Notes under the pieces: model-generated | The model's input: only the letters and a program-made list of their open reading frames with translations | Told to the model about the DNA's origin: nothing | Database searches by the model: none | Part shown: in pieces, positions 10,449-27,077 of the stretch | Position numbering within the stretch: position 1 is the stretch's first letter | Layout: each line of letters opens with the position of its first letter | Source: Gluconacetobacter aggeris | GTDB lineage: Bacteria; Pseudomonadota; Alphaproteobacteria; Acetobacterales; Acetobacteraceae | Length of the DNA: 64,000 bases | Reading direction: 5' to 3' | NCBI RefSeq assembly: GCF_014174395.1 | Contig: NZ_JABEQD010000003.1 | Span: forward strand, 434,001 to 498,000 | Position numbers and translations under genes: made by a program

Positions 10449-13400
10449 CTAGACGGCGGGCGGAACCATCTGAACCACTGCGGTCCTCAAGAGGGTGTCT
10501 CGGGGCTCCTCAGCGTTGCCCGTGTCTGGCGCATTATCCAGGGCGGGGCGCGCCTCACCGGTAATCACGACGTTCACTGCGGCGCCGCGGGCTCTGAGCT
10601 CTTTGATGGCCTCAGCCGCAGCCGTGCGCGCAGGCAGGCCCGTCAGGCGCCAGGACGTGTCGAGATTGGCCCCCTCGGGATTGGCGCGCTTGACGCTCAG
10701 CCAGTTGAACGAGCCTTCGATGAGCACCGTGGGCGTAATGAGCGACTTGGAGTGCAGTAGCGCAATGTGATGGAGGGTCGCGCCCATCTCGCGCAATAGC
10801 ACCTGCAGGCGGGCATCGACAGGTCTGGTCGCCGGTCGCGTGACGATGTGCACGGAGCAGCGCCGTGCGATAGCGCCGCTGACGACGTCCTGGAGGGCCT
10901 CGGTCTCCACGGGGTCCGCGCCCAGGAAAGGCGAGACGACCACTGCGTTGCATCCTGACGCCAATTCGTTCAGAGCAGCGTTGAAGGCGTTGACATGAGC
11001 GGCGTGGGTCGACAGGCGCTCACCGCGCAGGACAATGTCGTCGGGGGCCGCATAGTTGCCGGTGACCTCGCGCAGCTCTGAACCGCGCGTAAACATTGAT
11101 CGACCCACGATACCCAAGGTGGAGGATGGAATACCTTCGAAATGCTCCATTGCACCGATGATGACGAAGCTGTCCTTTGCTCGCGAGATGGCGACGTTCA
11201 GGAGGCTGCGGCTGCCTTCGATGAAGGAGGGGGGCGTGTCGCGGTCGTAGGTCGGCGAAAAGATGACGATAGGCCGTTCCGCGCCCTGCAGTGCGTGGAC
11301 GGTGCCCACGGTGATGTTCGAGAAATCCAGTTTCCCATTGTCGCGCATATGGCCAATGGTCGCGTGGAGCACGCGCTTCTGCGCCGAGAACGGAGTCACG
11401 ACAGCCACGATCTTCGATAGCTCGCAGCCGTAATGGTTAACCCACTCCTGCGCATGCGCACCGATCCAGCGCGCGATAGCGGCGGCTTCTTTTTTGTTGG
11501 TCCCGCTGCCGCCGACGCGCTCGTATCGCCCGGAGACGTTCGCCCATGCCAGAGCGGGCACCGGAGGCGGCGCCTTGGGCTGCGCCGTCATAGGCTCGAG
11601 CCGACCGCCATAGACCAACTCGTTGCAGATTTGAATGATGTCGCGGTGACACCGGCGATGCTCGGAGAGAAACATGCCTGGTAAAGGGGCCTCGGGCGAG
11701 GAATACCGTGTTGAGGACTGGACAACACGCATCACGGACCCCGGCAGCTCGTTGCGCGCGCTGGCCGTCACGACCCGGCCGTCGGTCACGGCATGGTCCT
11801 CGTTCCACCAGCTCTGGTAGACACCCGCGGCCTGGGCGTTGCCGCAATCGGTGGAGTGCGGCATCGTTACGACCGGCGCGATCTGGAAGATATCGCCTAC
11901 GACGACCGCACGCTTGGCCAGCGCCATCGCGGGTGCTGCCTGGAAGGGCGGTATCTGCCCCGCCTCGTCGATGATGAGCGTGTCGATGAACCCCGTCATG
12001 TAGAGGCTTTGCCATTTCTGGTCGACGCGAGCGGTCCTAATGAAATGCCTGGGCAGCGTCGCTGTCGTCGAGACGAAGCACGGCGTCAGCATCGCCCAGC
12101 GGCGATACATGGCGACTAGCGCCTTCTCGCCCGCCCCCTTGAAAGGGTAAGCGCGTGTATCGCCGCCGGAGAGTGCCGCCTGGAATCTCTGCGTCTCAAG
12201 GATCCAGCGCCCTTCCCAGTAGCGTAGGGCCAGGTGAAAAAGCTTGAAGCGCACTGTGCGGTCAAGCAGTGCATCGAGTGCGCGGTGATCGGATGTCTCC
12301 CGGAGCCAGGGCAGCTCGCCTTCGGAGACCTCAAAGTTCTGGCGCCACCAATCCGGTTCGCCCACGGCGTGGCCGGCTTCTGCCAGCATCCGAGGCAGAG
12401 CGGCGAGTTCCGCGCGCTTGCTGGCGAGTTCGCGCATGGGAGCATCGCAGCTGCGCGCCTTCATCTCGTTGAGCTGGCGCAGCTCACTTTCGGATACGAC
12501 CTTTTTGTTGGCGCATTCCTCGGCCTGCGCCCCGATCTGGGCAAGTCGCGCTTTTCGGGTTCTCTCCACGGCTGCCAGCTCCGCCTCCGCGTCCCCGAGG
12601 GCTTTGCGGGCCGTTTCCTGCAGGCCCGCGATCACGCCAAGATAAGCCGCGCGTGTGCGGGCCTGCATGGCGGACACAAACGCCGCAGCGTGAGGCGATT
12701 GAGCGACCATGACTTCGGCCGCCTCCCATTTGCGCGTCGAGAAGAGGCCACCGAAAATCCCGCCTTCGCTGGGAAGGGACGCGATGACGCGGGCGGCGAA
12801 CGCGTCGGTGTCTTCGACCTGTCGCCGTTGCTTTTCGACGGTGTCCTGGGCTCGGGCCAGCAGGCGGGCCTCGTTCTGACTTTCAGCGCTGTAACGCCTG
12901 CGCGCAGCGTCAAGGGCGCCGGTTTCTTCTTCAAGGCGCGCACCGACGTTTCCGGCCTTTTCATCAAACTGTCCTTTCAATCGGACGAGTTCAGCCTCCT
13001 GTTCGTCGAGGGCGGCGGCGTCGGGGCCTTCGCCCGTAAGCTGGTCATAACGCTGATAGGCGGCGATGAGGGGGCGCACGCGATTATGAAGATGCGCCAT
13101 CTCCTTACGCAGGATTTCGACCGCTTCGTGAACGTCCTCCACATCTTGCAGGTCCAGCCGATAATCATGAAAGCGCGCCATCCACGTCACCATGGCTTGG
13201 TCGAGAATGGCGCAGTCGCGCTCCAGGGCTGGGAATCCAGACCAGTCCTCCGGGGCCGGCCTGCGCCCAGGGACCGCGACTAGGAATCCCTCCTTCTCTG
13301 CCCTGGGAGCGCGCTCCTTTGAGATGAGAAGCAGCCCCAGGCTGTCTGCACCATCCACCCAGCGCCGCGCCCAATTGCGGTCGGAGGGGTCAATCAGCGC

Positions 13401-14402
13401 GGAGCCCATCGCGACAATGATGTTTTGTACGGCCTGATTGTTGGTCGAGGTGCAGACAAAGACGACGGGCTCCTCGTTACGCAGGGCGCGGTAGACGAGC
13501 TCGGTCGCGATGATGCCTTGCAAGAGAGTCGTCTTGCCCGTGCCCGGCGGCCCATTCACAGCCAACATCTCACCCTCTTCGAGGGCTAGGTATGCGCCGA
13601 CCGTATCGGACTGGTTGGGTGACAGACCATATTTGCCGTTCATCGACCCGCGGGGCGCCTTCGACATTTCATCGCGGAACGCCCCATCTACCAATTCTGC
13701 GTCATTGAGCGGGGTGATGTAGCGCGCAAGCAAAGGCGACATGATGCTGGTTGGCTCAGCGCAGGCTGCATCGTAAAATTTCTTGAGGTTGCGGATCATC
13801 GCCATGTTGGCGGAAGACGCGACCGGCAGCGCGGGCACGGTCTCGGTCAGCACCCATCCCTGGGGCACCACCCCATCGGTCACCGCGTCCCAGCAGCCGT
13901 CTGCCCAATCGAGCCAGCGCGACCACTCGGTGCAATCCGGCGGGTTCGCCTGCAACCAAGCGTCCATCCGTTCCACGTGGCCGATGGTTACGATGCTGTC
14001 AGTTGGCTCCAGATAGTGCCGGTTTATCCAGGGCGGCAGGTCCTCATGAACCGATAGCTGGCCCGTCGCGCTGACAGCCACGACGACGCCCTGGACATAG
14101 GCACGGGCGTGCCGAAGGTCTCCGGCACCGTGGGTGACTGTCAGGTTGAGCGCGCGCAGCGCTATGCTAGCTATGACGACGTCGCTGTCCTTGTCCTCTG
14201 CGGCATCCTTTTGCTTTAAGCGGAGGGCGTGCAGAGCCTCGACGTCGCGCGGCGGTAGAACGCCACGGCGCAAATCCTCGACCCGAAGTGTCACGACCTC
14301 CTTACCTTCGAAGGACAGTGTCGCCTGAGCTTCGTCGACGAGGGATCGGCGCCAGTATTCGAGCACATCCAATGGGCGTGGCGACTTCTGATTGACCGGC
14401 AT
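10449..14402 (-). CDS. SF1 helicase fused to PLD nuclease (Mokosh type II-like)
   Basis: A 1317-residue protein. A DNA2/UPF1-type superfamily 1 helicase core has Walker A GPPGTGKTTLLQGI near residue 285, a long coiled-coil insert (about 430-640), Walker B TLIIDEAGQIPP near 830, and late motifs including TVHALQGAERPIVIFSPTYD. The C-terminal domain carries the phospholipase-D signature HSKSLITP followed by EGSFNW near residue 1240. A single polypeptide joining these two activities is the reported architecture of type II Mokosh anti-phage systems (MkoC). It sits alone between defence genes. Which helicase-PLD subfamily it belongs to needs a profile search. Confidence 0.7.
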   Translation of the reverse strand: MPVNQKSPRPLDVLEYWRRSLVDEAQATLSFEGKEVVTLRVEDLRRGVLPPRDVEALHALRLKQKDAAEDKDSDVVIASIALRALNLTVTHGAGDLRHARAYVQGVVVAVSATGQLSVHEDLPPWINRHYLEPTDSIVTIGHVERMDAWLQANPPDCTEWSRWLDWADGCWDAVTDGVVPQGWVLTETVPALPVASSANMAMIRNLKKFYDAACAEPTSIMSPLLARYITPLNDAELVDGAFRDEMSKAPRGSMNGKYGLSPNQSDTVGAYLALEEGEMLAVNGPPGTGKTTLLQGIIATELVYRALRNEEPVVFVCTSTNNQAVQNIIVAMGSALIDPSDRNWARRWVDGADSLGLLLISKERAPRAEKEGFLVAVPGRRPAPEDWSGFPALERDCAILDQAMVTWMARFHDYRLDLQDVEDVHEAVEILRKEMAHLHNRVRPLIAAYQRYDQLTGEGPDAAALDEQEAELVRLKGQFDEKAGNVGARLEEETGALDAARRRYSAESQNEARLLARAQDTVEKQRRQVEDTDAFAARVIASLPSEGGIFGGLFSTRKWEAAEVMVAQSPHAAAFVSAMQARTRAAYLGVIAGLQETARKALGDAEAELAAVERTRKARLAQIGAQAEECANKKVVSESELRQLNEMKARSCDAPMRELASKRAELAALPRMLAEAGHAVGEPDWWRQNFEVSEGELPWLRETSDHRALDALLDRTVRFKLFHLALRYWEGRWILETQRFQAALSGGDTRAYPFKGAGEKALVAMYRRWAMLTPCFVSTTATLPRHFIRTARVDQKWQSLYMTGFIDTLIIDEAGQIPPFQAAPAMALAKRAVVVGDIFQIAPVVTMPHSTDCGNAQAAGVYQSWWNEDHAVTDGRVVTASARNELPGSVMRVVQSSTRYSSPEAPLPGMFLSEHRRCHRDIIQICNELVYGGRLEPMTAQPKAPPPVPALAWANVSGRYERVGGSGTNKKEAAAIARWIGAHAQEWVNHYGCELSKIVAVVTPFSAQKRVLHATIGHMRDNGKLDFSNITVGTVHALQGAERPIVIFSPTYDRDTPPSFIEGSRSLLNVAISRAKDSFVIIGAMEHFEGIPSSTLGIVGRSMFTRGSELREVTGNYAAPDDIVLRGERLSTHAAHVNAFNAALNELASGCNAVVVSPFLGADPVETEALQDVVSGAIARRCSVHIVTRPATRPVDARLQVLLREMGATLHHIALLHSKSLITPTVLIEGSFNWLSVKRANPEGANLDTSWRLTGLPARTAAAEAIKELRARGAAVNVVITGEARPALDNAPDTGNAEEPRDTLLRTAVVQMVPPAV

Positions 14403-15122: not shown

Positions 15123-15458
15123 CTAAACATCTTCTGCATTTGGACCGCTCATCCAGAGCGGAATATCGTTGCGCGCATGCAGCACGCGCCAGACATCAAT
15201 ACGATCCTCACGCTCAAGATAAAATACGAGGTAAGGATAACCTTTCACGCGATGGGCACGCAGTCCCGGCAGGTCCAGCTCATAGGCATAACGGAGCGAT
15301 CCCGCACCCGGATAGTCTCCGATGAACATGAAAGCGCTCTGTAATGCCGCGATGAAGCCCATTGCAATGGCCTCACCCGCCTCGGCAGCATAGTAATCAA
15401 CCGCCAGCTCGACATCCCGCTCAGCCTGTCCGCGCGGAACGACCAGTCGGCCTGTCAT
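15123..15458 (-). CDS. parE: ParE/RelE-superfamily toxin
   Basis: A 111-residue toxin of the RelE/ParE fold (LRAHRVKGYPYLVFYLERED and the ending WRVLHARNDIP are typical of the ParE branch). ParE toxins poison gyrase; RelE relatives cut mRNA. Its start overlaps the antitoxin stop by 4 bases, the usual coupling. It is the first gene past a module boundary and would act as an addiction module for the island. Confidence 0.85.
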   Translation of the reverse strand: MTGRLVVPRGQAERDVELAVDYYAAEAGEAIAMGFIAALQSAFMFIGDYPGAGSLRYAYELDLPGLRAHRVKGYPYLVFYLEREDRIDVWRVLHARNDIPLWMSGPNAEDV

Positions 15459-15697
15459 TCCTTGCCAGCAGTGCGGCGCGCACGCTCGCGCAGCCGGTCG
15501 AAATAACCGGTATCCGCCGGCACTGTGGCAGGAGACGAAGCGCCTTCGATCAACAGCGCACGCAAGTGCTGCCGGTCCTGATCCCGACGGATCAGTTCGC
15601 GCACATATTCGCTACTGGTCCCGAAGCCGCGTCCGACGACCTGCTCGTCGACGAAGCTTTTCATGGTCTCCGGGAGCGAGATGTTCATCGTACTCAT
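15455..15697 (-). CDS. parD: ParD-like ribbon-helix-helix antitoxin
   Basis: An 80-residue CopG/ParD antitoxin. The N-terminal ribbon-helix-helix (MNISLPETMKSFVDEQV, GTSSEYVRELIRRDQ) should bind the operon's operator, and the C-terminal tail wraps the toxin. It lies directly upstream of parE with a 4-base overlap. It is normally autoregulatory; no clear operator palindrome was identified upstream of 15697. Confidence 0.85.
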   Translation of the reverse strand: MSTMNISLPETMKSFVDEQVVGRGFGTSSEYVRELIRRDQDRQHLRALLIEGASSPATVPADTGYFDRLRERARRTAGKE

Positions 15698-15926: not shown

Positions 15927-16607
15927 CTAGATTCGTGAACCGACATGCACAGCGCCGAGCCCGATGAACGGCTCCCAGAGACCAGCTCTTCGGCAGATCT
16001 CCGTGCCGGTTCGACCCATGGCACACGAAGTTAAGCCAAGCGCCGTAGCCACGAGACAGATCGTCGCGCTTAAGGCACCGGCATCACGGACAAGCAACGA
16101 TTCCGAGTTTTCGTAGCCAGCGCCCGTCCTTGTCGGATCCGCTACAATCTGAACAGTCGTCCCAGCCTTGGCGCCGGTCAACTCCGAGACACTGGCCTCG
16201 TTCGCGCGCCGCACCGTCCTTTCATCAGCCGAGCAAAGAAGGATGGCGTGTCGCTCGGGTTCATAGACGCCAATTGGATCGCCATTGCCAATCGGGATGA
16301 TCAGGAGACGCAGCGGATGCAGACCACCGGCCGAAGGCGTATTGCGACTTTCCCACCCGATACCGAAGCGCCCCGCCGAGCGCCTCTCTCGCAGGAGCAT
16401 CGAATGCCAGAGCACCGAGGCTAATTCCACCTCGGCGACGGGACCACCGATCGTCGAAACCCTGTCTCGTAGAACATCAAGGAAAGGAATCGAGGGCGTC
16501 AGGATGTCCCGTGGCAGAGCGTATGCGCCAGTATGGGGCACCGCTGTCGGGCGCCACTCGAGCGGTAGGTCACGCGGACAAGGTTCATCGTCAATAGGCA
16601 TCGCCAT
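15927..16607 (-). CDS. SagB-type nitroreductase family protein
   Basis: An FMN nitroreductase-fold protein of about 226 residues. RRSAGRFG gives the N-terminal flavin-phosphate Arg/Ser motif, SAGGLHPL matches the SagB-type loop, and the C-terminal half has the RDAGALSATICLVATALGL helix. SagB-type enzymes oxidise azolines in peptide modification; others reduce nitro or quinone compounds. The start at 16607 overlaps the QueC-like stop by 17 bases (16601 is also possible), making it the last gene of a tightly coupled five-gene operon. Its place beside base-modifying enzymes suggests a redox step on a nucleobase or conjugate (inference). Confidence 0.7.
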   Translation of the reverse strand: MAMPIDDEPCPRDLPLEWRPTAVPHTGAYALPRDILTPSIPFLDVLRDRVSTIGGPVAEVELASVLWHSMLLRERRSAGRFGIGWESRNTPSAGGLHPLRLLIIPIGNGDPIGVYEPERHAILLCSADERTVRRANEASVSELTGAKAGTTVQIVADPTRTGAGYENSESLLVRDAGALSATICLVATALGLTSCAMGRTGTEICRRAGLWEPFIGLGAVHVGSRI

Positions 16608-17184
16608 AAATCTCGTGGGCAACTTGATAATGCTTCACGCACCCCCGACACGCACCACAGGCAAGATTGCCGAAGTGACAGGAATGGGCCCACGACAGGA
16701 GTGAGCGTGGTACCCCGGAGGCGCGAACGAGTTCCGCAGTCGTCATGCCGATCGCAGGCGCAACGACACGCATGCCTCCCTCCTGCCCAACCAAGATCTT
16801 GTCCATCATTGCATAGAACTCGGGCCTTCCGTCGGCGTGCGAGGCGTCAGATGCAACGGATCCGAGCATCAGTTCGTTGACGCCTATTGCAATGCCACGC
16901 ATTGCCGCGAAAGTGATCAGCATCTGATTCCGATAGGGCCACCATTCAGGAACCGGTGCCGCATCGAGCGCCGGAACGCCGGCCATGTCGCCGGATCCCA
17001 GTGCCGAGCAATCAATGCGGACCAACTCGTGACGTATGCCGAGCTCATCGCTCACCCTTGCAGCGGCCCTCATCTCGGCTTCAGCGGCCCGCTGCCCGTA
17101 ATCTACGGTAATCGCCACCTCTGGACGCTTCCAATAACCGAGAGCAATCGAATCCATGCCGCCGGAGAGCAGGATCGCCCTCAT
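16591..17184 (-). CDS. QueC-like 7-deazaguanine synthase homologue
   Basis: About 197 residues. PP-loop SGGMDS at the N-terminus, VDYGQRAAE, a PYRNQ motif in place of the QueC GRN segment, and a C-terminal zinc site formed by CHFGNLACGACRGC. All core QueC elements are present, but it is shorter than housekeeping QueC. QueC turns carboxydeazaguanine into preQ0 using ATP and ammonia. QueC homologues in type IV CBASS (Cap9) instead attach a deazaguanine to a protein N-terminus. The ATGA overlap with the upstream gene fixes the start at 17184. No other queuosine genes are nearby, so a defence or conjugation role is more likely than tRNA modification (inference). Confidence 0.8.
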   Translation of the reverse strand: MRAILLSGGMDSIALGYWKRPEVAITVDYGQRAAEAEMRAAARVSDELGIRHELVRIDCSALGSGDMAGVPALDAAPVPEWWPYRNQMLITFAAMRGIAIGVNELMLGSVASDASHADGRPEFYAMMDKILVGQEGGMRVVAPAIGMTTAELVRASGVPRSLLSWAHSCHFGNLACGACRGCVKHYQVAHEIYGDAY

Positions 17185-18371
17185 GGCAGTGCCCAGACGG
17201 CATGATAGACTGCAGACACCAGGTCGCCGACGACCTGGCATCTGGAACCGACAACCATTTTAAGATCCTCAGGACGCATGTTCTGAGCCAACGCAACGAC
17301 GGGGATGCCCTTCGCCCGTGCCCAGCCGACCTCGAACACTGTGCCCGGATCTGTGCCATTCAGAATCGCGATCATAGCTTGGCATCTGTCGACACCAGCA
17401 AGATCGAGCGGCGCTACGACCTCTCCCGGCCCCGGCCCTACATCGTGGAGCGGCGAGAACACCTCGACGCCCATATGCCCGAGCTGGGTACGGATCTCCT
17501 CGACCATCCACCGCTCAGCTAGATTGAAAAACGGTGCCGCGATGTAAATACGACCGTGGCCCGGCACCACCGGGTCAAGCTCCAGAGATGCTAGCTCGTC
17601 CGCGGTTGAGATCGGCAGAACCCGCGTCGCGCAATATCTGCTTGTCGCACGAGACGCGAGATCGGCCGCTTCGACCGGATCGCGTCCCTCAACCGCCCAA
17701 AACTGCGTAAACGCGGCGGAATAGACGTCGCCTGATCCAATCTTCCAAACTGTGGGACTGCGGTAGGCTGGAACGCGGGCGCACCCCGACGCAGTCCCGA
17801 CGAGAGCACCGTAGCCGCCCATCTTGAGCACCACTACCTCCGCCCCCTGCGTCTCGATCAGATCCTGGACAATCTCGTCGGGGTCCGTGCGGTTGGTCAG
17901 ACATCCCGCCTCGAGGCGATTCAGGATGAGTGCGAGCCGTTTCGCGGTCGATCCATTCTCGCCGAAGGGCCTCGGATCAAATGCCGATTGCGGATCGTAT
18001 ACGGCAATCTTCGCCGTGACCCTCGCGGTGCCCTCCAGCATGCCGAAGCGGAGGACAACATCATCTTCGACGATGAGCGGATCATGCTTTTGAATCGCGT
18101 CAGGGCGGGGCGAAATCCTTGGCGTCGCCAGCGAGTGAAAATAGTCGAACGCGATACCGATGGGAACTTCTGGTCCCCGCGCCTCGAAGCCATACACACC
18201 CTCGAGATTGGCGACGCCGTCTAGGAGCGGCACCGCCCTATAGGTCATTAACCCGACATCAGGAACAGACGCGCTGATCGCGGCTGCGGCTCTGCCGCCC
18301 GACCCATAGACGTCGTCCCAGAAGGGCTCGATGCACCTCTCCAAATAGACACCGCCGACGACCGTGGTCAT
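17181..18371 (-). CDS. PfkB-family kinase fused to nucleoside deoxyribosyltransferase
   Basis: A 396-residue fusion. Residues 1 to about 265 are PfkB/ribokinase-like, with the catalytic motif KIGSGDVYSAAF near 215 supplying the base Asp. Residues from about 272 form a nucleoside 2-deoxyribosyltransferase domain: RIYIAAPFFNLAERWMVEE, a DRCQAMIAIL strand, and PGTVFEVGWARAKGIPVV with the nucleophile Glu. Such enzymes phosphorylate a sugar or nucleoside and cleave or exchange an N-glycosidic base. It starts by ATGA overlap with the Gly-rich gene and ends by ATGA overlap with the QueC-like gene, so the products are made together. Confidence 0.75.
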   Translation of the reverse strand: MTTVVGGVYLERCIEPFWDDVYGSGGRAAAAISASVPDVGLMTYRAVPLLDGVANLEGVYGFEARGPEVPIGIAFDYFHSLATPRISPRPDAIQKHDPLIVEDDVVLRFGMLEGTARVTAKIAVYDPQSAFDPRPFGENGSTAKRLALILNRLEAGCLTNRTDPDEIVQDLIETQGAEVVVLKMGGYGALVGTASGCARVPAYRSPTVWKIGSGDVYSAAFTQFWAVEGRDPVEAADLASRATSRYCATRVLPISTADELASLELDPVVPGHGRIYIAAPFFNLAERWMVEEIRTQLGHMGVEVFSPLHDVGPGPGEVVAPLDLAGVDRCQAMIAILNGTDPGTVFEVGWARAKGIPVVALAQNMRPEDLKMVVGSRCQVVGDLVSAVYHAVWALP

Positions 18372-18748
18372 GCGGGCTGGATCCGAAGCTCGACTAGCCC
18401 GCTGGAGATGCTTGTGACGATCGCCTTATAGGTCCATCCGTCCCCAATGCAGCGGATAAGCGTGAGATGACCACGGTGGGTCAGTGCTCCAGCTACTGAG
18501 CCGCCTTTCCTGACCTCGAGAATAGGTCGACCGCTTGATGTCGCCAGCACAATGTCCAGCTCCTCGCCGACTCTGAGCGTGGCTACCACAGCGGGCACCG
18601 GGCTGTTCAGAGGAGCGCGCTGCGCAATCGCGCACTGGTCAGGATCACCGCCTCCGCTGCCACCACCGCCTGGCGGACCACCGCCGTTGCTTGCAGGACG
18701 AATACTTCCAACGTAACCGTCATCGCGGCCGCCACCACCACCAGACAT
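18368..18748 (-). CDS. small protein with poly-glycine N-terminus
   Basis: A 126-residue protein. Residues 1-35 are low complexity, beginning MSGGGGGRDDGY with further GGG runs. The rest (about 37-126) looks like a small compact beta-rich domain (VGEELDIVL, HRGHLTLIRCI, LVELRIQPA). I do not recognise a named family. Its stop overlaps the kinase-deoxyribosyltransferase start (ATGA), and it sits 49 bases after the glycosylase gene. After Met removal the exposed N-terminus would be Ser-Gly-Gly, which could serve as the acceptor for a QueC-like conjugating enzyme. That role is inferred from operon context only. Confidence 0.6.
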   Translation of the reverse strand: MSGGGGGRDDGYVGSIRPASNGGGPPGGGGSGGGDPDQCAIAQRAPLNSPVPAVVATLRVGEELDIVLATSSGRPILEVRKGGSVAGALTHRGHLTLIRCIGDGWTYKAIVTSISSGLVELRIQPA

Positions 18749-18797
18749 AGAATTGTCCCTTAAGAACTTTCCTCTGGATTCATAATAGATCGTGTAA

Positions 18798-19622
18798 TCA
18801 GATAAGGGTCAACTGGGTCGTCACATCCAATTTGGAGGAATTTCCTCGCCGCGTCTTCGCACTATCAGCCTTCTCTAGCATGGACTTCAGGAGGGCAGCG
18901 GGTATCTCACGCATCGACGCCCACATCACGGAGTCAAGGATCGATGCCCGGATGCCGATGCTTCGAGCGAATTCTAGATAAGCGCTCTCCAGTAAGAGGT
19001 AATGCCGTTCGACGCGCCAATCCTCGCGGAAGATGCCGAGAATAGCGCCAGCGCGGAGAATGTGGATGTCGAGGATCGATACCTCGTCGCTGCCGCGCCA
19101 GTTCCGCACGATCCAGGAGGCGGTCTTCGGCCCGATGCCAGGAATGCTGACGAGCGCATTCCGAAGGGCACAGTCGCCGATACGGTCATCAATATCCTCG
19201 AGCGCGACCATCGCAGTAGAAACGTAACGCGCTTTCTGCGCCGCGAAACGATACCGCACCGGCCGGCCATTCACGACGAGTGGATCGCGCAACAGCCGTT
19301 CCACAACGAACTGATTCTTCAACGCTTCTGCATCCGCCCGCATCACGTCGCGGAGGCGGCGATACGCGGCGAGGCCGACTTCAGCCGGGATACCATAGCC
19401 TCCGAGCAGGCAGGCCAGCGTCTCCTCCGCCAGCGTCTCGCCGAGCCTGTAGTGTTCGGGCTCCTCCATCTCGAGCATCCAACCTTGGGAGGCCCAATAT
19501 GCGGGGGTGCATATTTCTTCGTGCCGTCCCCATCTGATGAGCCCCATGCCAATGGGCTGCTCCGGCGCGGGTATCCTACGCGTCGCGAGACCCGAAGGGG
19601 TGAGCATGCTGACCTGCTGCAT
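18798..19622 (-). CDS. OGG-like HhH-GPD DNA glycosylase homologue
   Basis: About 274 residues. The helix-hairpin-helix SIPGIGPKTASWIVRN is followed by SILDIHILRA, where the Asp matches the GPD catalytic Asp of OGG1/AlkA-type glycosylases; the usual Lys nucleophile may be the K in GPKTA. Such enzymes remove modified purines. OGG homologues also occur in type IV CBASS operons. The ATG at 19622 is preferred because AAGGAAGG lies just upstream. A longer frame starts at 19664 but would overlap the operator region. First gene of the operon, divergent from the HTH gene. Confidence 0.75.
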   Translation of the reverse strand: MQQVSMLTPSGLATRRIPAPEQPIGMGLIRWGRHEEICTPAYWASQGWMLEMEEPEHYRLGETLAEETLACLLGGYGIPAEVGLAAYRRLRDVMRADAEALKNQFVVERLLRDPLVVNGRPVRYRFAAQKARYVSTAMVALEDIDDRIGDCALRNALVSIPGIGPKTASWIVRNWRGSDEVSILDIHILRAGAILGIFREDWRVERHYLLLESAYLEFARSIGIRASILDSVMWASMREIPAALLKSMLEKADSAKTRRGNSSKLDVTTQLTLI

Positions 19623-19629
19623 TGCCGCC

Positions 19630-19678
19630 TTCCTTATAAATGCATATATACATTTATTATGCATGAATCAGCAATGCA
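19630..19678. promoter_or_regulatory. divergent operator/promoter region
   Basis: The 56-base gap between the glycosylase start (19622) and the HTH start (19679) is AT-rich and holds an 18-bp near-perfect palindrome at 19638-19655 (AAATGCATATATACATTT) plus a further ATGCAT. The HTH protein encoded next door is the obvious candidate to bind here and control both directions. Confidence 0.5.
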
Positions 19679-20059
19679 ATGTCCGACCTGATCGAGCGTG
19701 CCGAGATGGTGCGGCGGAGACTTCGCCTACGCCAAGCCGTCGTAGCGGCCGCCCTTAACATATCTCAGGGCCACTACAGTAAGGTCGTGGCCAGACGGAC
19801 ACCTCTTGCCCGTAATCTGGCTGAGCGCTTGGCAGCATGGGTGGACGTCAACAGCACGGGCGAGCACGCTGACGGCGACCTCGTGACGCACCGGATGGCG
19901 ATGCTCGCGGAATCTATTCAACGCCAGTGCGTAGAGCTTCTTCAGTTAACAACGCGCGGAATACATGCTTCCGCTTCTCCAGCGGATGGTGAACCTTTCC
20001 AGCCAAAAACTGCTTCAAATTTAGAAACAACCCGGAAAGCGGCCGACAGTGAAAGATGA
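19679..20059 (+). CDS. HTH DNA-binding regulator
   Basis: A 126-residue protein with an XRE-like helix-turn-helix near the N-terminus (RRRLRLRQAVVAAALNISQG followed by HYSKVVARRTPLA) and a polar C-terminal tail of unknown role. It probably represses itself and the divergent enzyme operon through the 19638 palindrome. Its stop overlaps an ATG (20056) that opens the next, broken, gene, so the two were a coupled pair. Confidence 0.6.
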   Translation: MSDLIERAEMVRRRLRLRQAVVAAALNISQGHYSKVVARRTPLARNLAERLAAWVDVNSTGEHADGDLVTHRMAMLAESIQRQCVELLQLTTRGIHASASPADGEPFQPKTASNLETTRKAADSER

Positions 20060-21243
20060 GTGCTCCGCAACTTTTTGATCACAAATCTTGACGGCGAAGG
20101 TTGGTCGCACGCCTGCTTCTGTCGCGTCTAGCGAGCGATCTTGATATCAAGCCGTCTTTAATCGTTCTCGGCAGCTCCTGACCGGGAATTACGGGGAGAA
20201 TTGGAATTTTTTCGAACGCTGCAGAGTTATACGACCTACTCGAAGCTGCCATTATCGACGGTGGGCTGGCTGCCCGTGGCCGTGTCGAGGCCGTAGCGCG
20301 CGATGCCGACGACCTCTCCGTCACGTTCCCGGCATACGCCGCGCTGATGGCTTGGGGTGCCGAGGGTATGGGTCTAATCGTCGGGATCGCGCTGACGCAC
20401 CACACCGTAAAGAGTAAATCCGCGGCACTCACGCTCTTCAGTATCGCTGCGCTAGACGGCAGGATCTCGCCGCCTCCTTTGATAACCATGGTCCCCCTGT
20501 CGATCCAGAAGGCCGCGAACGCAAAGGTGGATTCGAGGGTCCTGCGATCAGATGCAAGCCACGCCCTGCGTACACTAATCCTGTCGTTACCGACGGACGA
20601 TCTCATGATCCCGCTCAGCCAGAGCGTAATGCATCTCATGAGCCGGCAGGACGTGGTGGAAACGCTGATAGCCGCCCTCGGGGTGAAATGGCTTCGCTTC
20701 GGCCCGCCCGTGCTCGACCAGTATCGCCGGCTGATTGCCGAACGCCCGGACGACGAACCGGCCTGTCAGGCCTTCTTCTGCCGCTACCCGCAGCTACTCG
20801 ATCCGATGGCCGTTCAGGTCTGGAGCCAGCCTGACTTCCATGGCGCCCTCGAACCAGACTTCGTGGTCCGCAGAGCTGATGACAGCTATCTCGTGGTCGA
20901 GATCGAATGTCCGGGTAAGCGGCTCATGACCAAGGGAGCTCAGTTGAGTGGCGAGGCAACCCATGCCGAGAAGCAGGCCGTTGAATACGAGAGCTTTCTG
21001 TCGGAGAGAGTCCAGGAGGCGCGCACGCACTTTCCGAAATACCGCAGGGCTGATTGCCTCGTGATCATCGGCACTGAGGCCAGTCTCGATCAGGCGCAGT
21101 CCGAAGCTCTTGAGCGGGCGAATCAGCGCCGTCAGAATGTGCGGATCGCCGGGTTCGACTGGCTCGAGGCACGGGCGCGGAAGCTGATCGAAAACGTGAG
21201 CCACGGCTCCATCGACGTCATAACCCGGCACCGTGTGATCTGA
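20056..21243 (+). pseudogene. Shedu-like (DUF4263) nuclease gene with two in-frame TGA codons
   Basis: Reading from the ATG that overlaps the HTH stop gives a single frame of about 395 codons, interrupted only by TGA at 20089-20091 and 20179-20181. The remaining ORF starts at ATG 20347 and covers about 298 residues. Its C-terminal half has a PD-(D/E)xK nuclease core, LEPDFVVRRADDSYLVVEIE, and then HAEKQAVEYESFLSERV, as in DUF4263/Shedu anti-phage nucleases. Residues between the stops (RLVARLLLSRLASDLDIKPS, AELYDLLEAAIIDGGLAARG) look genuinely coding. Either it is a decaying gene or a shortened protein is made from 20347. Family assignment is moderate. Confidence 0.6.
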
Positions 21244-22934: not shown

Positions 22935-23843
22935 TTACCCGTTCCGCATAAAATGGTCGAAGACATCACTCGCCTTTTCTTCCTCTTGGAAGCACGGACC
23001 ATCTGACTCAAACTGTAGCACCGTGATTTCCAGATCATACCGCTCTGAACGAATACACATCTCGTGTACTGGCTCGGCAAACCAAACGCCAGCTTGGTGC
23101 ATAACTCCTGTCAGCGCCGCGTCAGAAAAATCTCGTCTTACTGCAAATGCCTGAGGGGGGAGCTCAAACACAGTGTCCCTCGTACGAATATAGCGCCCCG
23201 ATTTGAGCGCCGCGTCGCTTGTCTTCGCCCAATGAGCAAAGCCCTCATTCGAAACCACCATGATTGCTCGCGTCTCAGTATATTCAAGCCACCGCAGGAT
23301 CGCCGCTGTCAACGAAACGCCGTAGCGCTTTGCCAGTCGACCGAGCGCTTCAAAATCGGCGCGAACCTTGGCGGGCAACTGGCGGCGAAAATCATGTAAC
23401 GGCATCAGTAACGCAGCGGCAAAACGGTCGGCTTCAAGCTCAATGCCAGATCCATCGCGACGAACTATCGCATTTTCGTCGCAATATGCACCACCATCGA
23501 AGCGATTATCTTCCTCTATCAGCTGACGATGCAATAAATAATGAGCGAACTCATGCGCGACAGTAAACGAGCGGCGCCCGACAGACTGGTCGGCATGGTA
23601 CATGATTGCCCATTGGCGCGGCCGGGCCTCACTATAAACCAAGGCACCCACGCAACCTGGGATATTGCGCTCAACAACTTCATGGACTGGATTCTCGGGC
23701 GCTACATGCCGAGAATACTCCAAGGCTAGGTCAATTACATTCACTGGAACGTGATCAAACCGATCCGCTCCAAGGACCAGATCGAGCATCTGCGTGATAC
23801 GGGCTGCTTCTTTTAGCGGCCGAGGACGGCTGCCCTCGCTCAC
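22935..23843 (-). CDS. ImmA/IrrE-family Zn peptidase (CapP-like)
   Basis: A 302-residue metallopeptidase. HEFAH in TVAHEFAHYLLHR supplies the zinc His pair and catalytic Glu, and ELEADRFAAALLMP supplies the downstream acidic ligand. The C-terminal third resembles the sensor part of ImmA/IrrE proteins. Its start overlaps the HTH gene stop by 4 bases. A COG2856-type peptidase paired with an HTH repressor and divergent from CBASS is the CapH-CapP arrangement, where the peptidase cleaves the repressor to switch on the immune operon. Here this is inferred from order and family. Confidence 0.8.
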   Translation of the reverse strand: MSEGSRPRPLKEAARITQMLDLVLGADRFDHVPVNVIDLALEYSRHVAPENPVHEVVERNIPGCVGALVYSEARPRQWAIMYHADQSVGRRSFTVAHEFAHYLLHRQLIEEDNRFDGGAYCDENAIVRRDGSGIELEADRFAAALLMPLHDFRRQLPAKVRADFEALGRLAKRYGVSLTAAILRWLEYTETRAIMVVSNEGFAHWAKTSDAALKSGRYIRTRDTVFELPPQAFAVRRDFSDAALTGVMHQAGVWFAEPVHEMCIRSERYDLEITVLQFESDGPCFQEEEKASDVFDHFMRNG

Positions 23844-24166
23844 TTGCGGACCTTTGTATCAAGAATTCGGGCCATTTCGCGGAGCTGCCTGCGCGTGTCC
23901 TCGGGCAGGCCGCTGTACTGCCGGAAGAATGCAGTATCTTCGGCTTCGCTGAGCGTCTGCGCGTCGGCCCCAAACAGATAATCGACAGTCACCCCTAGCG
24001 CACCGGCAATCGCGGACAATTTCTCGGCCGACGGCCTCGGCGGATTCTTATTTTCCAACTCCCATATATAGCTCTTTGATGAGCCAGTCTCTTGAGCGAG
24101 CTGATCAAGAGTCAGGCCTTTCTTTGTTCGTAAGTCCTTGATCCTGTGGCCAAATTTCATAGCCAA
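23840..24166 (-). CDS. XRE-family repressor (CapH-like)
   Basis: 108 residues. Standard XRE helix-turn-helix (IKDLRTKKGLTLDQLAQETG, then SKSYIWELENKNPPRPS and GVTVDYLFG) and a short C-terminal tail that could carry the cleavage site for the coupled peptidase. It is divergent from the CD-NTase, with a promoter and inverted repeats between them, so it most likely represses the CBASS operon and itself. Confidence 0.8.
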   Translation of the reverse strand: MAMKFGHRIKDLRTKKGLTLDQLAQETGSSKSYIWELENKNPPRPSAEKLSAIAGALGVTVDYLFGADAQTLSEAEDTAFFRQYSGLPEDTRRQLREMARILDTKVRK

Positions 24167-24221
24167 CTCTCCAACTCAATCTATCCAGATTCTTGTTCGT
24201 AATAGCTATATTGTATGTTCC

Positions 24222-24290
24222 TTGACAGACGTATTCAAGCTACCTATTTTGTTCGGAGTAGGCATACTATATTTTTTATCACCCCGAACA
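24222..24290 (+). promoter_or_regulatory. CBASS promoter with flanking inverted repeat
   Basis: TTGACA at 24222-24227 and TATTTT at 24245-24250 with 17-base spacing form a good sigma-70-type promoter. TGTTCGG (24250-24256) and CCGAACA (24284-24290) are a perfect 7-bp inverted repeat over the transcript start, a plausible site for the neighbouring XRE protein. A start expected near 24257 argues against translation from the ATG at 24215. Confidence 0.6.
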
Positions 24291-24346
24291 TCTCTTGGGC
24301 GGTAGCGAGATGCCCAGATGCGACTCAACCCTCTGTGGAGGTCAAT

Positions 24347-25594
24347 TTGAACGTCCAGCTTGCGCCGACAGGCCTCAATCCCTTCGAAGACCCTCTCAAC
24401 CGCATCCTTGCAGAGATCGCGCTCAGCGTTCAGCTTCCGCCTTCGCTGCATGACAAAGCGAAATCGCGCTACGATGCGGTGCGGCGCCATCTCGAGGGCA
24501 CCACCGCCTTCTTCGACCAGATCGAACACTTCTACCCCCAGGGCTCCATGGCGATTGATGCCACGATTTCGACGCGCGGCACCGACGACGAGTACGATCT
24601 CGACATCGTCTCGCAACTCGGGGGCCGCTTTCGCGGTATGGCACCACTTGAAATCCTAACCGAACTCGAAACCGCCCTCGCCAACTACCCGGTCCAGCGG
24701 GTCTTGCGGCAGACACGTTGCGTCACTCTGTTTTACGCCGACAAGATGCATCTCGACATCACGCCGTCGCTGCGCGTCTATGCTACGCTCGATCGCGAAA
24801 GCCTGATCACCCACGCCAAGGGTCCGCGGCGTTCGGACGACGACCGCCTCGTCGACATGAACGCCTATGGCTTTGCGCAGTGGTATGCGAACAGGACGCC
24901 GATCGAACTGCGCATGGCAAAGGAGTTCCACCGGCGGTGGCTTGTCCATGCCGGCCTTGCCGTTCGCGCCGACGCCGATATGGACGATGTTCCGGATCAG
25001 TGCGACTTCATCGTCAAGAACACGGCAACGCTTGCCCTCCAGCTCCTCAAGCGCTTCCGGAATATCCGCTACACCAACTATGCTGGGCGCGTTCCGCCAT
25101 CGGTGATGCTCTCTTACTACGCCGGGCTCGCCGCGCAGCCGAACATGTCACTCAGCGCAATGCTCGTTCGCCTCGCGAGCTGGATCATGCGCGACATCGA
25201 GCAGGCCTCGCTCTACGGGCGGCTCCTGCATGTCGCCAATCCGGCCTGCGCGACCGATGTCTTCACCGACCGCTGGCCGGAATCCATCGCTCAGCAGAAT
25301 GAGTTCGCCGAACACCTGCACGAGTTCATCCGTTCGCTCGAGGCTATGCGCAAGGGCGAGTTGTTCCCAAACGCGATGATGGACACGTTGCGCGACGACT
25401 TCGGCGACCGCGTCGTGACCCGCGCCGCAGATCAGATCGCCACCGAGGTTGGTGGCGGGATACAGCAGTCGCGTCAGCTCTACACGCGGCGCGGCGGCGT
25501 GCTCTTGCCTACCGCCGCTGCGGTCGCAGCGTCTACCGTCAACCCGGCGGTCTCGGCGGCGCGGCCTCACACTTTCTTCGGGCGCAAGATCTGA
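24347..25594 (+). CDS. CBASS CD-NTase (cyclic oligonucleotide synthase)
   Basis: A nucleotidyltransferase of the cGAS/DncV-like class. FYPQGSMAIDATIS gives the GS motif, DEYDLDIV the two metal-binding Asp, and LDITPSLR the third; an OAS1_C-like helical domain follows. On infection it would make a cyclic nucleotide that activates the patatin effector. The frame opens at ATG 24215, upstream of the likely promoter. I chose TTG 24347 because GGAGG ends 5 bases before it and LNVQLAPTGLNPF looks like a natural N-terminus (GTG 24335 is possible). Stop and next start overlap by one base. The nucleotide product is not predictable here. Confidence 0.85.
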   Translation: MNVQLAPTGLNPFEDPLNRILAEIALSVQLPPSLHDKAKSRYDAVRRHLEGTTAFFDQIEHFYPQGSMAIDATISTRGTDDEYDLDIVSQLGGRFRGMAPLEILTELETALANYPVQRVLRQTRCVTLFYADKMHLDITPSLRVYATLDRESLITHAKGPRRSDDDRLVDMNAYGFAQWYANRTPIELRMAKEFHRRWLVHAGLAVRADADMDDVPDQCDFIVKNTATLALQLLKRFRNIRYTNYAGRVPPSVMLSYYAGLAAQPNMSLSAMLVRLASWIMRDIEQASLYGRLLHVANPACATDVFTDRWPESIAQQNEFAEHLHEFIRSLEAMRKGELFPNAMMDTLRDDFGDRVVTRAADQIATEVGGGIQQSRQLYTRRGGVLLPTAAAVAASTVNPAVSAARPHTFFGRKI

Positions 25595-26046
25595 TGCAGG
25601 CGGCGTCCCTCTCCATCGACCAGCAAATCGCCGCGATGAAGGCGACTTGGCCGCAGTTCGCTGCCCGCCGCGTTGACCGCCGCGCTCAGTCCGCTCGGTG
25701 GGTGGGAAGCGTGAGGCCGCAATATTCAAACTACGCACTGGAAATCCGTTATGGGCTCGGGTCGTTCCCCGAGGTGCGGGTGCTCTCACCCGAGCTGGTT
25801 CGGTTGTCCGGCAATTCCGAGGGGCAGCTGCCCCATGTCTATCCGCCGGCCGAGGATCCGACTCTTTGCCTGTTTGATCCTCGCGAGAGGGAATGGTCAT
25901 CGGCGATGACCATCGCCAGCACGACCGTCCCTTGGGCGCTCGACTGGCTCGCCTGCTACGAACTTTGGTTGATGACCGGACGCTGGACCGGCGGCGGACG
26001 GCACGCCGGATCAGAATTCGCCGAGGTAACGGAGACCACCCCATGA
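25594..26046 (+). CDS. CBASS E2-like protein (type II-short)
   Basis: 150 residues with the E2-only CBASS signature: PHVYPPAEDPTLCLFDP containing the active-site Cys, then the PWALDWLACYELW region and TGRWTGGGRH. In full type II systems a fused E1-E2 (Cap2) and a JAB protease (Cap3) act on the CD-NTase C-terminus. Here only the E2-like part exists, the type II-short layout. The CD-NTase ends in a flexible Gly/Ala/Ser-rich tail, suitable as a conjugation partner. It starts in TGATG with the CD-NTase stop and ends in ATGA with the effector start. Confidence 0.8.
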   Translation: MQAASLSIDQQIAAMKATWPQFAARRVDRRAQSARWVGSVRPQYSNYALEIRYGLGSFPEVRVLSPELVRLSGNSEGQLPHVYPPAEDPTLCLFDPREREWSSAMTIASTTVPWALDWLACYELWLMTGRWTGGGRHAGSEFAEVTETTP

Positions 26047-27077
26047 ATTATGTTCCACCGCGCCGGTCAGACGGCACGATCCAACATGCTCGCCTAAAGC
26101 AATCATGGCCACAGGGTCGCCCGTTCCGCATCCTGTCAATCGACGGAGGCGGAATTCGCGGCGTGTTTCCTGCGGCCGTCCTGGCCGAACTCGAAAGCCG
26201 CTTCCTAGGCGGCGCCTCTATCACCAATCACTTCGATATGATCGCGGGCACCTCAACGGGCGGCATTATCGCGCTCGCCCTTGCCCACGGGATGACGGCC
26301 CGACAAGCCTTGAACATCTATCTCGAACGCGGTGAGCACATCTTCCCGCCGGTAGCTGGGCTCGGCAAGGTATCGAGGGCGCTGCGCTGGGTATTCAAAC
26401 CGAAGCACGACCAGGCGGCGCTCAAAGAGGAGCTGCTACGGATCTTTGGCGACAAGGTGCTAGACGATGCCGTCACCCGCTTGGTCGTCCCGAGCTTCGA
26501 AGGGCGCCACGGCGAGCCATTCCTCTACAAGACGCCGCACCACCCGGACTACCAGAAGGACCGCCACAAGAAATTCGCCCATGTAGCGCTCCACACGACA
26601 GCAGCCCCATCCTACTACCCCGGTGTCGAGGACGACGGTTACGTCATGATCGATGGCGGTATCTGGGCCAATAATCCGGTCATGAACGCCCTGGTCGACG
26701 CCCTGGCCTGCTTCGACATTGCACGCGAGGACGTGCGTATCCTAAGCTTGGGAACGGGTGAGTCCACTTTCGCGGTCGATGAGCGGGCTCGCAACGGAGG
26801 CATCAAGGATTGGGCGTTCATGCGCTCATTCAACGCGGCTGCCCGAGCACAGTCCCGCAATGCCCTCGGCCAAGCCTATCTGCTGGTCGGCAAGAACAAC
26901 GTTACACGGATCGATGTGCCGGAAAGCGACACACCGATCGCGATGGATGATGTGCAGCGCTCGGTCCGGGAGTTGCCACTGGTCGCACGTAGTCTCGTTG
27001 AAGGCGCCGGGCATCATATCGAACGGGTATTCCTCGACGGTGCAGTCGAGCGCTTCATCCGTTGTCCGGTGATGTAG
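26043..27077 (+). CDS. capV: CapV-like patatin phospholipase, CBASS effector
   Basis: 344 residues. Patatin catalytic elements are complete: oxyanion loop DGGGIRGVFP, nucleophile GTSTGG, and the Asp in MIDGGIWANNP. CapV is activated by the cyclic nucleotide and degrades inner-membrane phospholipids, killing the infected cell. The start is set by the ATGA overlap with the E2-like gene; the same frame is open 50 codons further upstream, inside the E2 gene. Last gene of the operon. Confidence 0.85.
   Translation: MNYVPPRRSDGTIQHARLKQSWPQGRPFRILSIDGGGIRGVFPAAVLAELESRFLGGASITNHFDMIAGTSTGGIIALALAHGMTARQALNIYLERGEHIFPPVAGLGKVSRALRWVFKPKHDQAALKEELLRIFGDKVLDDAVTRLVVPSFEGRHGEPFLYKTPHHPDYQKDRHKKFAHVALHTTAAPSYYPGVEDDGYVMIDGGIWANNPVMNALVDALACFDIAREDVRILSLGTGESTFAVDERARNGGIKDWAFMRSFNAAARAQSRNALGQAYLLVGKNNVTRIDVPESDTPIAMDDVQRSVRELPLVARSLVEGAGHHIERVFLDGAVERFIRCPVM

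Follow-up and report, generated by a model that had tools for sequence, protein, structure and literature searches.

The window, that is, the whole stretch of 64,000 nucleotides of Gluconacetobacter aggeris DNA that was analysed, carries a cassette of five open reading frames on the minus strand (15927-19664), listed here from its OGG-like end and followed by three neighbouring features.

18798..19664, minus strand: OGG/HhH-GPD glycosylase-like protein, 288 aa (PF22175, Ogg-HhH, 2e-11); the second Met, at 19622, is also a possible start
18368..18748, minus strand: tailed small Gly-rich protein, 126 aa, no family assigned
17181..18371, minus strand: PfkB-type kinase fused to a nucleoside 2-deoxyribosyltransferase-like domain (PfkB-NDT), 396 aa (PF05014, 3e-16; PF00294, 6.6e-9)
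16591..17241, minus strand: QueC-like PP-loop/zinc protein, 216 aa (PF06508, 1.2e-23)
15927..16622, minus strand: SagB-type FMN nitroreductase/dehydrogenase, 231 aa, TTG start (PF00881, 2.4e-5)
19679..20059, plus strand: divergent HTH gene, probable regulator (HTH_31, 1.6e-4, below the cut-off)
20347..21243, plus strand: Shedu-like nuclease, a neighbour outside the cassette (PF14082, 2e-10; SduA, 1.8e-15)
24215..27077, plus strand: separate CBASS of CD-NTase, E2 and CapV-type phospholipase (PADLOC, 8e-177, 2.5e-59 and 9e-118)

The five reading frames, their families and their spacing are as claimed by a first-pass annotation of this DNA, with a 49-base gap after the OGG-like gene and then overlaps of 4, 61 and 32 bases. 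The 61-base overlap of PfkB-NDT with the QueC-like gene shrinks to 4 when the latter starts at its second ATG (17184), which is probably the true start. The PADLOC QueC model matches the QueC-like protein at 1.2e-14, and the nitroreductase matches the SagB model TIGR03605 at 1.2e-14, under the NCBI curated cut-off.

The neighbourhood recurs across genomes, and the counter-hypothesis of that annotation, that the homologues never occur together elsewhere, is disproved: all five genes are present in 57 of 77 loci, several of them closely related to each other, that have 2.6 kb on both sides of the QueC-like gene (87 loci minus ten without this length on one side). The small protein and PfkB-NDT accompany QueC in 77/77, counts to be read with the facts that QueC similarity brought in most of the loci and PfkB-NDT a few, that the QueC and PfkB-NDT counts are not independent, and that some of the counted loci served to train the small-protein profile. 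The OGG gene is found in 69 and missing from 8, which still keep this core trio; the nitroreductase gene is found in 58 and missing from 19. Left out of the counts were L003 (the window's species, 98.6% identity), L055 (interrupted by IS elements), L165 (TIR sister), the window-genome loci L001, L002 and L059, and two series of short duplicates (L060-L065, L154-L159). So were 73 loci on viral contigs (L081-L153), which have 24-38% identity in the best segment and were regarded as other QueC; L178 (CBASS IV), fetched later, is also outside the counts. Further genes recur around the cassette, namely a Dam-like gene (35/77 loci), a dGTPase at most 6 kb from QueC (18/77) and Mrr-type nuclease genes, which cluster in four loci (PF04471 matched in L069). 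The first-pass annotation did not include these Dam-like, dGTPase and Mrr genes, nor the HIRAN-like fold, the N-terminal motif and the TIR sister set described below.

The small protein of the window begins MSGGGGGRDD, a flexible Gly-rich N-terminus, behind which structure prediction places a HIRAN-like beta domain (residues about 40-126). This fold is common to DNA-end binders, and the predicted structure bears a weaker likeness to HamB of Hachiman. The protein resembles the HIRAN domains of HLTF and Rad5 in predicted fold but not in sequence, with no match to PF08797 in any of 47 family members (E up to 1). A PDB profile search with the small protein gave nothing meaningful, and Pfam and NCBIfam scans of its family found no convincing assignment (best PUA_4, 2.2e-4, in 4/47). 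Across relatives the tail follows the motif M-[S/G/T/C]-[G/S]. Of the 86 loci that have the small protein, 85 offer an in-frame start with this motif, starts having been called from in-frame ATG, GTG or TTG codons by choosing the motif. The exception is L047; L174 has none in the copy at the cassette position, a distant copy being counted instead. In the deposited annotation of 14 intact copies, 13 start exactly at the motif and the 14th one codon upstream. As a control, MSG opens 1 of 90 Met-initial reading frames; the motif played no part in picking these starts, which makes the two procedures different. Residue 2 is usually Ser, versus Gly in CBASS and Qat. Among 43 dereplicated loci it is Ser in all 26 with the SagB-like gene, and Ser in 12, Gly in 4 and Cys in 1 of those without (Fisher test, p = 0.016, Cys locus left out). 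Counting all loci with a called start, among them 60 of the 61 nitroreductase loci, the figures are Ser 59 and Thr 1 with the gene, and Ser 19, Gly 5 and Cys 1 without.

The HhH Lys and Asp of the OGG-like protein, which we take to be its catalytic residues, are kept in 41/41 aligned proteins, and PfkB-NDT keeps GSGD in 48/48 and the NDT residue Glu347 in 46/48. The nitroreductase family profile is closest to azoline oxidases (CyaGox, 1.8e-18; BmdC, 4.9e-10). A Lys-Tyr pair is catalytic in McbC-type enzymes; a KY pattern occurs in 42 of 61 loci, and the window protein has GY, without the Lys.

The QueC-like proteins carry the motifs SGGxDS, HxDG and CH(x)5CxxCxGC and form a clade of their own (20/20 tips, support 1.0) in a tree whose 43 "canonical" QueCs are mostly viral-contig sequences labelled by exclusion. 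Their grouping with Cap9 has weak support (0.43) in this tree, which has one Cap9 sequence; a tblastn search for further Cap9 in plasmids gave one record only. The base-recognising Asp, equivalent to D117 of Cap9, is invariant. The Tyr that follows a zinc Cys is kept in the 43 other QueCs aligned, and is replaced by His in the cassette proteins (Leu in one of 20), by His in the TIR set and by Glu in the sole Cap9 aligned; in another alignment this stacking-Tyr position is His in 46 of 47 cassette proteins. Since the stacking Tyr is replaced, the base may not be 7-carboxy-7-deazaguanine (CDG). In E. coli QueC, the Y189A mutant is inactive (PMC13329287). A match to PF01242 (QueD family) is absent in 5 of 50 host genomes. 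The window's genome holds a second, higher-scoring QueC (228.7 versus 83.8 bits), so the host probably needs no cassette QueC for queuosine, for which the latter is probably dispensable. We rejected a canonical queuosine gene on this ground and on its HxDG, not YPDC, and His189, not Tyr; a phage-carried queC was rejected as well, the 18 INPHARED matches being only 27-31% identical.

The setting is that of a defence island, as the first-pass annotation had stated, with both the Shedu-like gene and ParDE (Pfam) confirmed next to the cassette. It had also reported no adjacent CD-NTase or TGT; this holds for TGT, of which none was found among the window proteins scanned, whereas a CD-NTase (24215-25594) sits 4.55 kb from the cassette on the opposite strand. 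Its possible starts (MFLDRR, VEVNLN, LNVQLA) all lack a Gly tail, and its gene set seems to form a type II-like CBASS of its own. A gene similar to the divergent HTH gene is present in 14 loci of the clustering, the window and L003 counted in. In the same 20 genomes, 94 PADLOC families match in the cassette flanks (120 of 134 genes sampled; 25 of the 94 listed) versus 4 in the queD flanks (120 of 177 genes, 193 before the centre genes were removed), figures that count families, not genes with a match, and that compare the cassette with housekeeping regions (queD), not with randomly chosen loci. Its distribution is patchy, with 18 carriers among 5426 E. coli genomes; it lies at integrase and tRNA sites, and occurs on 24 plasmid records, haloarchaea among them; seven IMG/VR contigs match at 46-60% identity. 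Over the five genes plus the Dam-like gene, pN/pS between two E. coli alleles is 0.14-0.32. In many bacteria, and in some archaea, this mobile gene set has anti-phage systems as neighbours.

A sister set, for which 3 of 15 plasmid matches were fetched, combines an MGGG-tailed ThsB-type TIR protein with QueC, OGG and a TIR-TGT protein, and in 7/7 of its loci read the tailed TIR protein is encoded directly after QueC. In the sister-set locus L183 the PADLOC QueC (1.1e-28) and TGT (9e-21) models match; that of L165 has a PfkB protein without an NDT match.

We consider it reasonably probable that the cassette is an anti-phage defence acting by protein-nucleobase conjugation with the HIRAN-like protein as substrate, which would make it a third QueC-type system of this kind. 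The chemical steps and the immune outcome, which we infer from the genes, their conservation, the tail motif, the predicted fold, the neighbourhood and the sister set, would run as follows. Methionine aminopeptidase would expose residue 2 of the tail (Ser, which some relatives replace by Gly, Thr or Cys), and the QueC-like enzyme would use ATP to activate a guanine-like base at its carboxylate, the base most likely being CDG from the host queuosine pathway, and join the activated base to the N-terminal amine. In handling the base, the OGG-like protein could release it from DNA, and the kinase-glycosidase pair of PfkB-NDT could phosphorylate a nucleoside and split the base from it. The SagB-like flavoenzyme would oxidise the conjugation product, and the predicted HIRAN-like domain of the tagged protein would engage DNA ends and recognise or mark phage DNA, with exchangeable partners (Mrr nuclease, dGTPase, Dam-like methylase) acting downstream or alongside. 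Several observations weigh against this reading: Ser in place of Gly at residue 2, the replaced stacking Tyr, the host genomes that gave no QueD-family match, the weak grouping with Cap9, the missing PF08797 match, the loci that lack the nitroreductase or OGG, the missing Lys of the window's nitroreductase and the PfkB protein of L165 with no NDT match. The first-pass annotation had proposed that a modified base could be made, activated and attached to a protein or to DNA; comparative evidence favours the tailed small protein as the likely substrate. One might speculate further, and tentatively, that QueC-type enzymes, often with an OGG, are a tail-tagging toolkit for cyclases, QatB, TIR and HIRAN-like proteins, with an oxazole cap at Ser2 in the present case. 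The second ATP step of QueC in tRNA-base synthesis turns an amide into a nitrile; here the step might serve instead to close a ring with the Ser2 side chain. Oxidation of that ring to an oxazole by the SagB-like enzyme would then leave the DNA-sensing protein with a stable nucleobase-oxazole cap.

It seems unlikely that the cassette is instead a purine or deazapurine salvage island, in which the QueC-like enzyme and PfkB-NDT recycle purine bases. The PfkB-NDT neighbour of a published QueC clade has been called likely to be involved in purine salvage (PMC13329287), a VUT-family protein tagged "queuosine salvage" adjoins the cassette on one plasmid, and the nearby dGTPase genes would also fit; however, patchiness, mobility and flanks rich in defence families argue against it, as do the constant company of the tailed, predicted HIRAN-like protein, the TIR sister set and the second QueC of the window's genome, which scores higher. 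We likewise regard as improbable a DNA modification or restriction system, in which OGG, often with the Dam-like methylase, would recognise or excise a modified phage base, the other enzymes would process it and the tail would be a linker. The fully kept OGG Lys and Asp, the frequent Dam-like gene, the Mrr-type clusters and the likeness of the predicted fold to DNA-end binders and, less marked, to HamB are consistent with such a system; yet the core trio persists in loci without OGG, and a linker would leave unexplained both the conservation at residues 1-3 and the similar tail of the TIR protein. Least probable is a small protein that is a peptide-type precursor, its QueC/SagB product being a modified peptide with no nucleobase, a reading that would suit the likeness to azoline oxidases and the Ser or Thr at residue 2 in 60 of 61 nitroreductase loci, but which is opposed by the loci without the SagB-like gene, by the first 25 of 60 Pfam families from 120 flank genes, which include neither YcaO nor an exporter, and by the predicted HIRAN-like fold, which suggests a retained protein.

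If the conjugation reading is true, the cassette and its TIR sister would make protein-nucleobase conjugation a recurring immune strategy of bacteria and archaea and link it to DNA-end sensing, and would give access, through native E. coli alleles, to a small system of simple genetics in which to study the tag and the enzymes that make and oxidise it.

Libby et al. described the QueC clade in 2026 as PF06508 "Cluster 4" (PMC13329287), to which we assign the cassette by motif and neighbour: both have CH(x)5CxxCxGCxK, a YGQ motif (spaced YGQ(x)5E in the cassette, one residue off the printed YGQ(x)6E) and a PfkB-NDT neighbour. For this cluster, the parts of that account consulted suggest purine salvage and are silent on defence islands, on OGG and the SagB-like enzyme, and on the tailed protein (PMC13329287). 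Our literature searches found no other description of the gene set and, in agreement with the first-pass annotation, no name for it, although a preprint or subscription-journal account could exist. With Thoeris and other TIR systems, the sister set shares a ThsB-type TIR; the five cassette genes in the window include no TIR gene. Protein-nucleobase conjugation was reported in 2025 in one immune system (PMC11996544) and proposed for a second (PMC13279940); QueC-family enzymes modify a tail like that of the small protein in type IV CBASS and need one in Qat (PMC13279940; PMC11996544). The qatABCD system resembles the cassette in pairing such an enzyme with a tailed partner, the tail of QatB (MGTS) being disordered and essential. 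QatB is helical, and QatC has about 400 aa with extensions and a base pocket in which Tyr and Asp are replaced (PMC13279940; PMC13329287), unlike the 216-aa cassette enzyme, which has HxDG with an invariant Asp, not a Thr/Thr pocket. With neither the QatA ATPase nor the QatD TatD nuclease among the five genes, and with this different QueC architecture, qatABCD was rejected. Type IV CBASS comes closer, with a QueC-family ligase and a flexible tail of a small residue 2 followed by Gly; its cyclase tails start MGGS (the type IV-like cyclase examined begins MGGSGGG), similar to the small-protein tail, and the QueC hallmarks (PP-loop, zinc Cys, base-recognising Asp) are present in the cassette. Type IV CBASS also has an OGG companion. 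Membership, which the first-pass annotation had raised against its own reading, was rejected, as the window has no Gly-tailed CD-NTase, the nearby one being that of the other CBASS, and no TGT-like Cap10 among ten window proteins scanned with Pfam and ten with PADLOC. The cassette adds PfkB-NDT and a SagB-like oxidase in turn, and its proposed substrate would be the HIRAN-like protein, where type IV CBASS has a deazaguanylated CD-NTase.

The first-pass annotation had claimed a five-gene cassette in the window, and all five genes are present where it placed them (listed with their neighbours; L numbers below denote loci from other genomes, plasmids and viral contigs fetched for comparison).

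10449-14402: MkoC-like (Mokosh) large protein (PADLOC, 6.5e-252), same side as ParDE
15123-15697: ParDE, on one side of the cassette
16622-15927, minus: SagB-type nitroreductase
17241 or 17184 to 16591, minus: QueC-like protein
18371-17181, minus: PfkB-NDT fusion
18748-18368, minus: Gly-rich protein, 126 aa
19664-18798, minus: OGG-like glycosylase
From 19679: HTH gene, divergent from the cassette
24215-27077: type II-like CBASS (CD-NTase, E2, CapV-type phospholipase)

The cassette has a single gap, of 49 bases, and overlaps of 4, 61 (or 4) and 32 bases. On its other side lie a Shedu-like gene and the CBASS, separated by an HTH-like and ImmA/IrrE-like pair (22935-24166), within which 22935-23843 matches an spr1629-type antitoxin model at 3e-11, below the cut-off. 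The CBASS cyclase, 4.55 kb from the cassette and on the opposite strand, has no Gly tail at any of its possible starts, and is thus not the missing partner of the cassette. A second QueC in this genome scores far higher in the family match than the cassette QueC (228.7 versus 83.8 bits).

The cassette is real, conserved, mobile and located in defence islands. A scan with the window's QueC yielded 50 loci, and more came from plasmids, E. coli and other genomes, and viral contigs; 87 were kept, of which the 77 with at least 2.6 kb on either side of QueC form the base for gene counts. The proposed search for the five-gene neighbourhood in other genomes found all five genes together in 57 of these 77. 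All 77 have the small protein and PfkB-NDT, 69 have OGG and 58 the nitroreductase; 35 carry a Dam-like methylase and 18 a dGTPase. Because loci were recruited mostly through QueC and in a few cases through PfkB-NDT, the counts of these two are uninformative, those of the other genes informative. OGG occurs in one of two arrangements: upstream and codirectional, as in the window, or convergently downstream. Genes for an Mrr-type nuclease (PF04471 in the L069 copy) cluster in four loci. The dGTPase is of the anti-phage type (L018, L053, L054, L056, L070, L073, L177 and others); in L056 it directly overlaps QueC, the position held elsewhere by the nitroreductase. Directly downstream of it, two distant loci (L054, 25934-26764; L018, 8814-9599) encode a protein some 270 aa long that has relatives in L042, L044 and L166; the L054 copy has no Pfam match. 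On haloarchaeal plasmids (L058, L071, L072) the core trio comes with a tandem pair of HIRAN-like repeats, and the tails begin with MGG or MCG; Methylobacteria (L040, L042-L044, L048) have a second tailed small protein shortly after QueC.

Gene flow of the cassette is recent: an E. coli copy, at least 80% of which is found in 18 of 5426 E. coli genomes, is 99.8% identical to that of Yersinia vastinensis across 3.6 kb. Both E. coli copies inspected have integrase genes nearby, and one of the two is located at a tRNA-Sec gene; L055 is an E. coli remnant beside IS3 elements, close to genes of the NACHT and HEPN types and to an integration site at tRNA-Thr. Matches to the PfkB-NDT protein occur in 7 of 398 Pseudomonadota species genomes (two of the seven being the window's genome and a sister set, described below), and to the QueC profile in 6 of 296 Bacteroidota species genomes, including the centre. 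Between two E. coli alleles, with synonymous sites near saturation, pN/pS is 0.14-0.32 for the Dam-like gene and the five cassette genes. The suggested association with defence islands was borne out when genes flanking the cassette and queD were compared in 20 genomes (120 sampled of 134 and 177, respectively; PADLOC, E 1e-10): cassette flanks match 94 families versus 4 for queD flanks, the latter being QueC itself and three RtcR-type models. Among 25 of the 94 that were listed are BrxL, DRT type 3, ThsB, type I and IV restriction enzymes, PtuA, AriA, NsnB, AbiEi and Tn7-like genes.

Among the enzymes, OGG keeps its two catalytic residues, the HhH Lys and the Asp, in 41/41 proteins; PfkB has GSGD in 48/48 and NDT Glu347 in 46/48. 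The nearest solved relatives of the nitroreductase are CyaGox, a cyanobactin oxidase, and BmdC, both of them enzymes that act on azolines; a Lys-Tyr pair is found in 42 of 61 loci, the window's copy being without it. QueC retains SGGxDS and its full zinc Cys set. Aligned to Cap9, the QueC-family enzyme of type IV CBASS, the base-recognising Asp is invariant (47/47) and the base-stacking Tyr position is His in 46/47 (assignments from excerpts of PMC13279940). The residue after the first zinc Cys is Tyr in 43/43 other QueCs aligned; the cassette family (Leu in 1/20) and the TIR set have His there, and the single Cap9 aligned has Glu. E. coli QueC Y189A is inactive (PMC13329287, excerpt). The cassette QueCs form a separate clade in the tree (20/20, support 1.0), which groups with Cap9 (one sequence) and the TIR set at a support of only 0.43.

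This TIR, or sister, set was reached through PfkB-NDT in one genome, L165, which encodes PfkB, a TIR protein whose C-terminal part is TGT-like (PF01702, 6.8e-9), OGG (PF22175, 2.5e-25), QueC (6.2e-39), a ThsB-type TIR protein (PF08937, 2.8e-22; N-terminus MMGGGGGGNW) whose gene overlaps QueC by four bases and, after it, a SLATT membrane protein. Six more loci, three of 15 plasmid matches and three further genomes, share the QueC-TIR pair, with the TIR protein MGGG-tailed in 7/7; the deposited starts fall exactly there in three annotated plasmids and were picked by motif in the three further genomes. PADLOC type IV CBASS models match the TIR-TGT protein (9e-21) and QueC (1.1e-28) of L183. In L184 and L185 OGG carries a glycosylase or lyase annotation, and in L186-L188 proteins fit OGG and TGT by size and position. 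A PfkB or carbohydrate-kinase gene adjoins four of the seven loci; a SLATT or DUF4231 protein is close by in L165 and L183-L185. The set, of which we found no description in the literature searched, resembles a TIR version of type IV CBASS.

QueC-family enzymes thus accompany three kinds of tailed partner, a cyclase (MGGSGGG in L178), a TIR protein and a HIRAN-like protein, which is the strongest reason to regard the tail as the substrate. In type IV CBASS, Cap9 couples the cyclase, at its N-terminal Gly, to 7-carboxy-7-deazaguanine (CDG; PMC13279940, excerpt); by analogy, the small protein would be joined at Ser2. The second ATP-dependent step of QueC is on the amide (PMC13329287, excerpt). 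Ring closure with a Ser at this position is chemically feasible, and a SagB-like oxidase would be suited to aromatising such a ring. With residue 2 called from motif-picked starts, Ser2 occurs in 26/26 oxidase-carrying loci of 43 dereplicated ones, and Gly2 (4) and Cys2 (1) only among the 17 without oxidase (p = 0.016, Cys locus excluded); among all loci, one oxidase-carrying locus, L161, has Thr2. These patterns fit but do not prove the ring-oxidation idea, and as Ser2 is also found in most oxidase-less loci, it is not kept solely for the oxidase. A QueD-family gene (PF01242) is present in 45 of 50 host genomes, so most of these hosts probably have the CDG route at their disposal. Guanine-type bases could be supplied or recycled by the dGTPase, through deoxyguanosine, and by PfkB-NDT, which would phosphorylate a nucleoside and split off its base. 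A VUT-family protein tagged "queuosine salvage" (L066, 11323-11898), encoded downstream of the cassette on one plasmid, hints at a 7-deazaguanine link.

A paper of July 2026 defined the clade of the cassette QueC as Cluster 4 and tied its PfkB-NDT neighbour to purine salvage (PMC13329287, excerpt); in the literature searched, part of it as excerpts, we found no link of Cluster 4 to OGG, the tailed protein, the SagB-like enzyme or defence. Tagging of the QueC type has precedent in the QatC and Cap9 papers (PMC13279940; PMC11996544; excerpts). The cassette most probably represents a new form of immunity by QueC-based protein tagging, in which the kind of substrate and the additional oxidation enzyme would be what is new.
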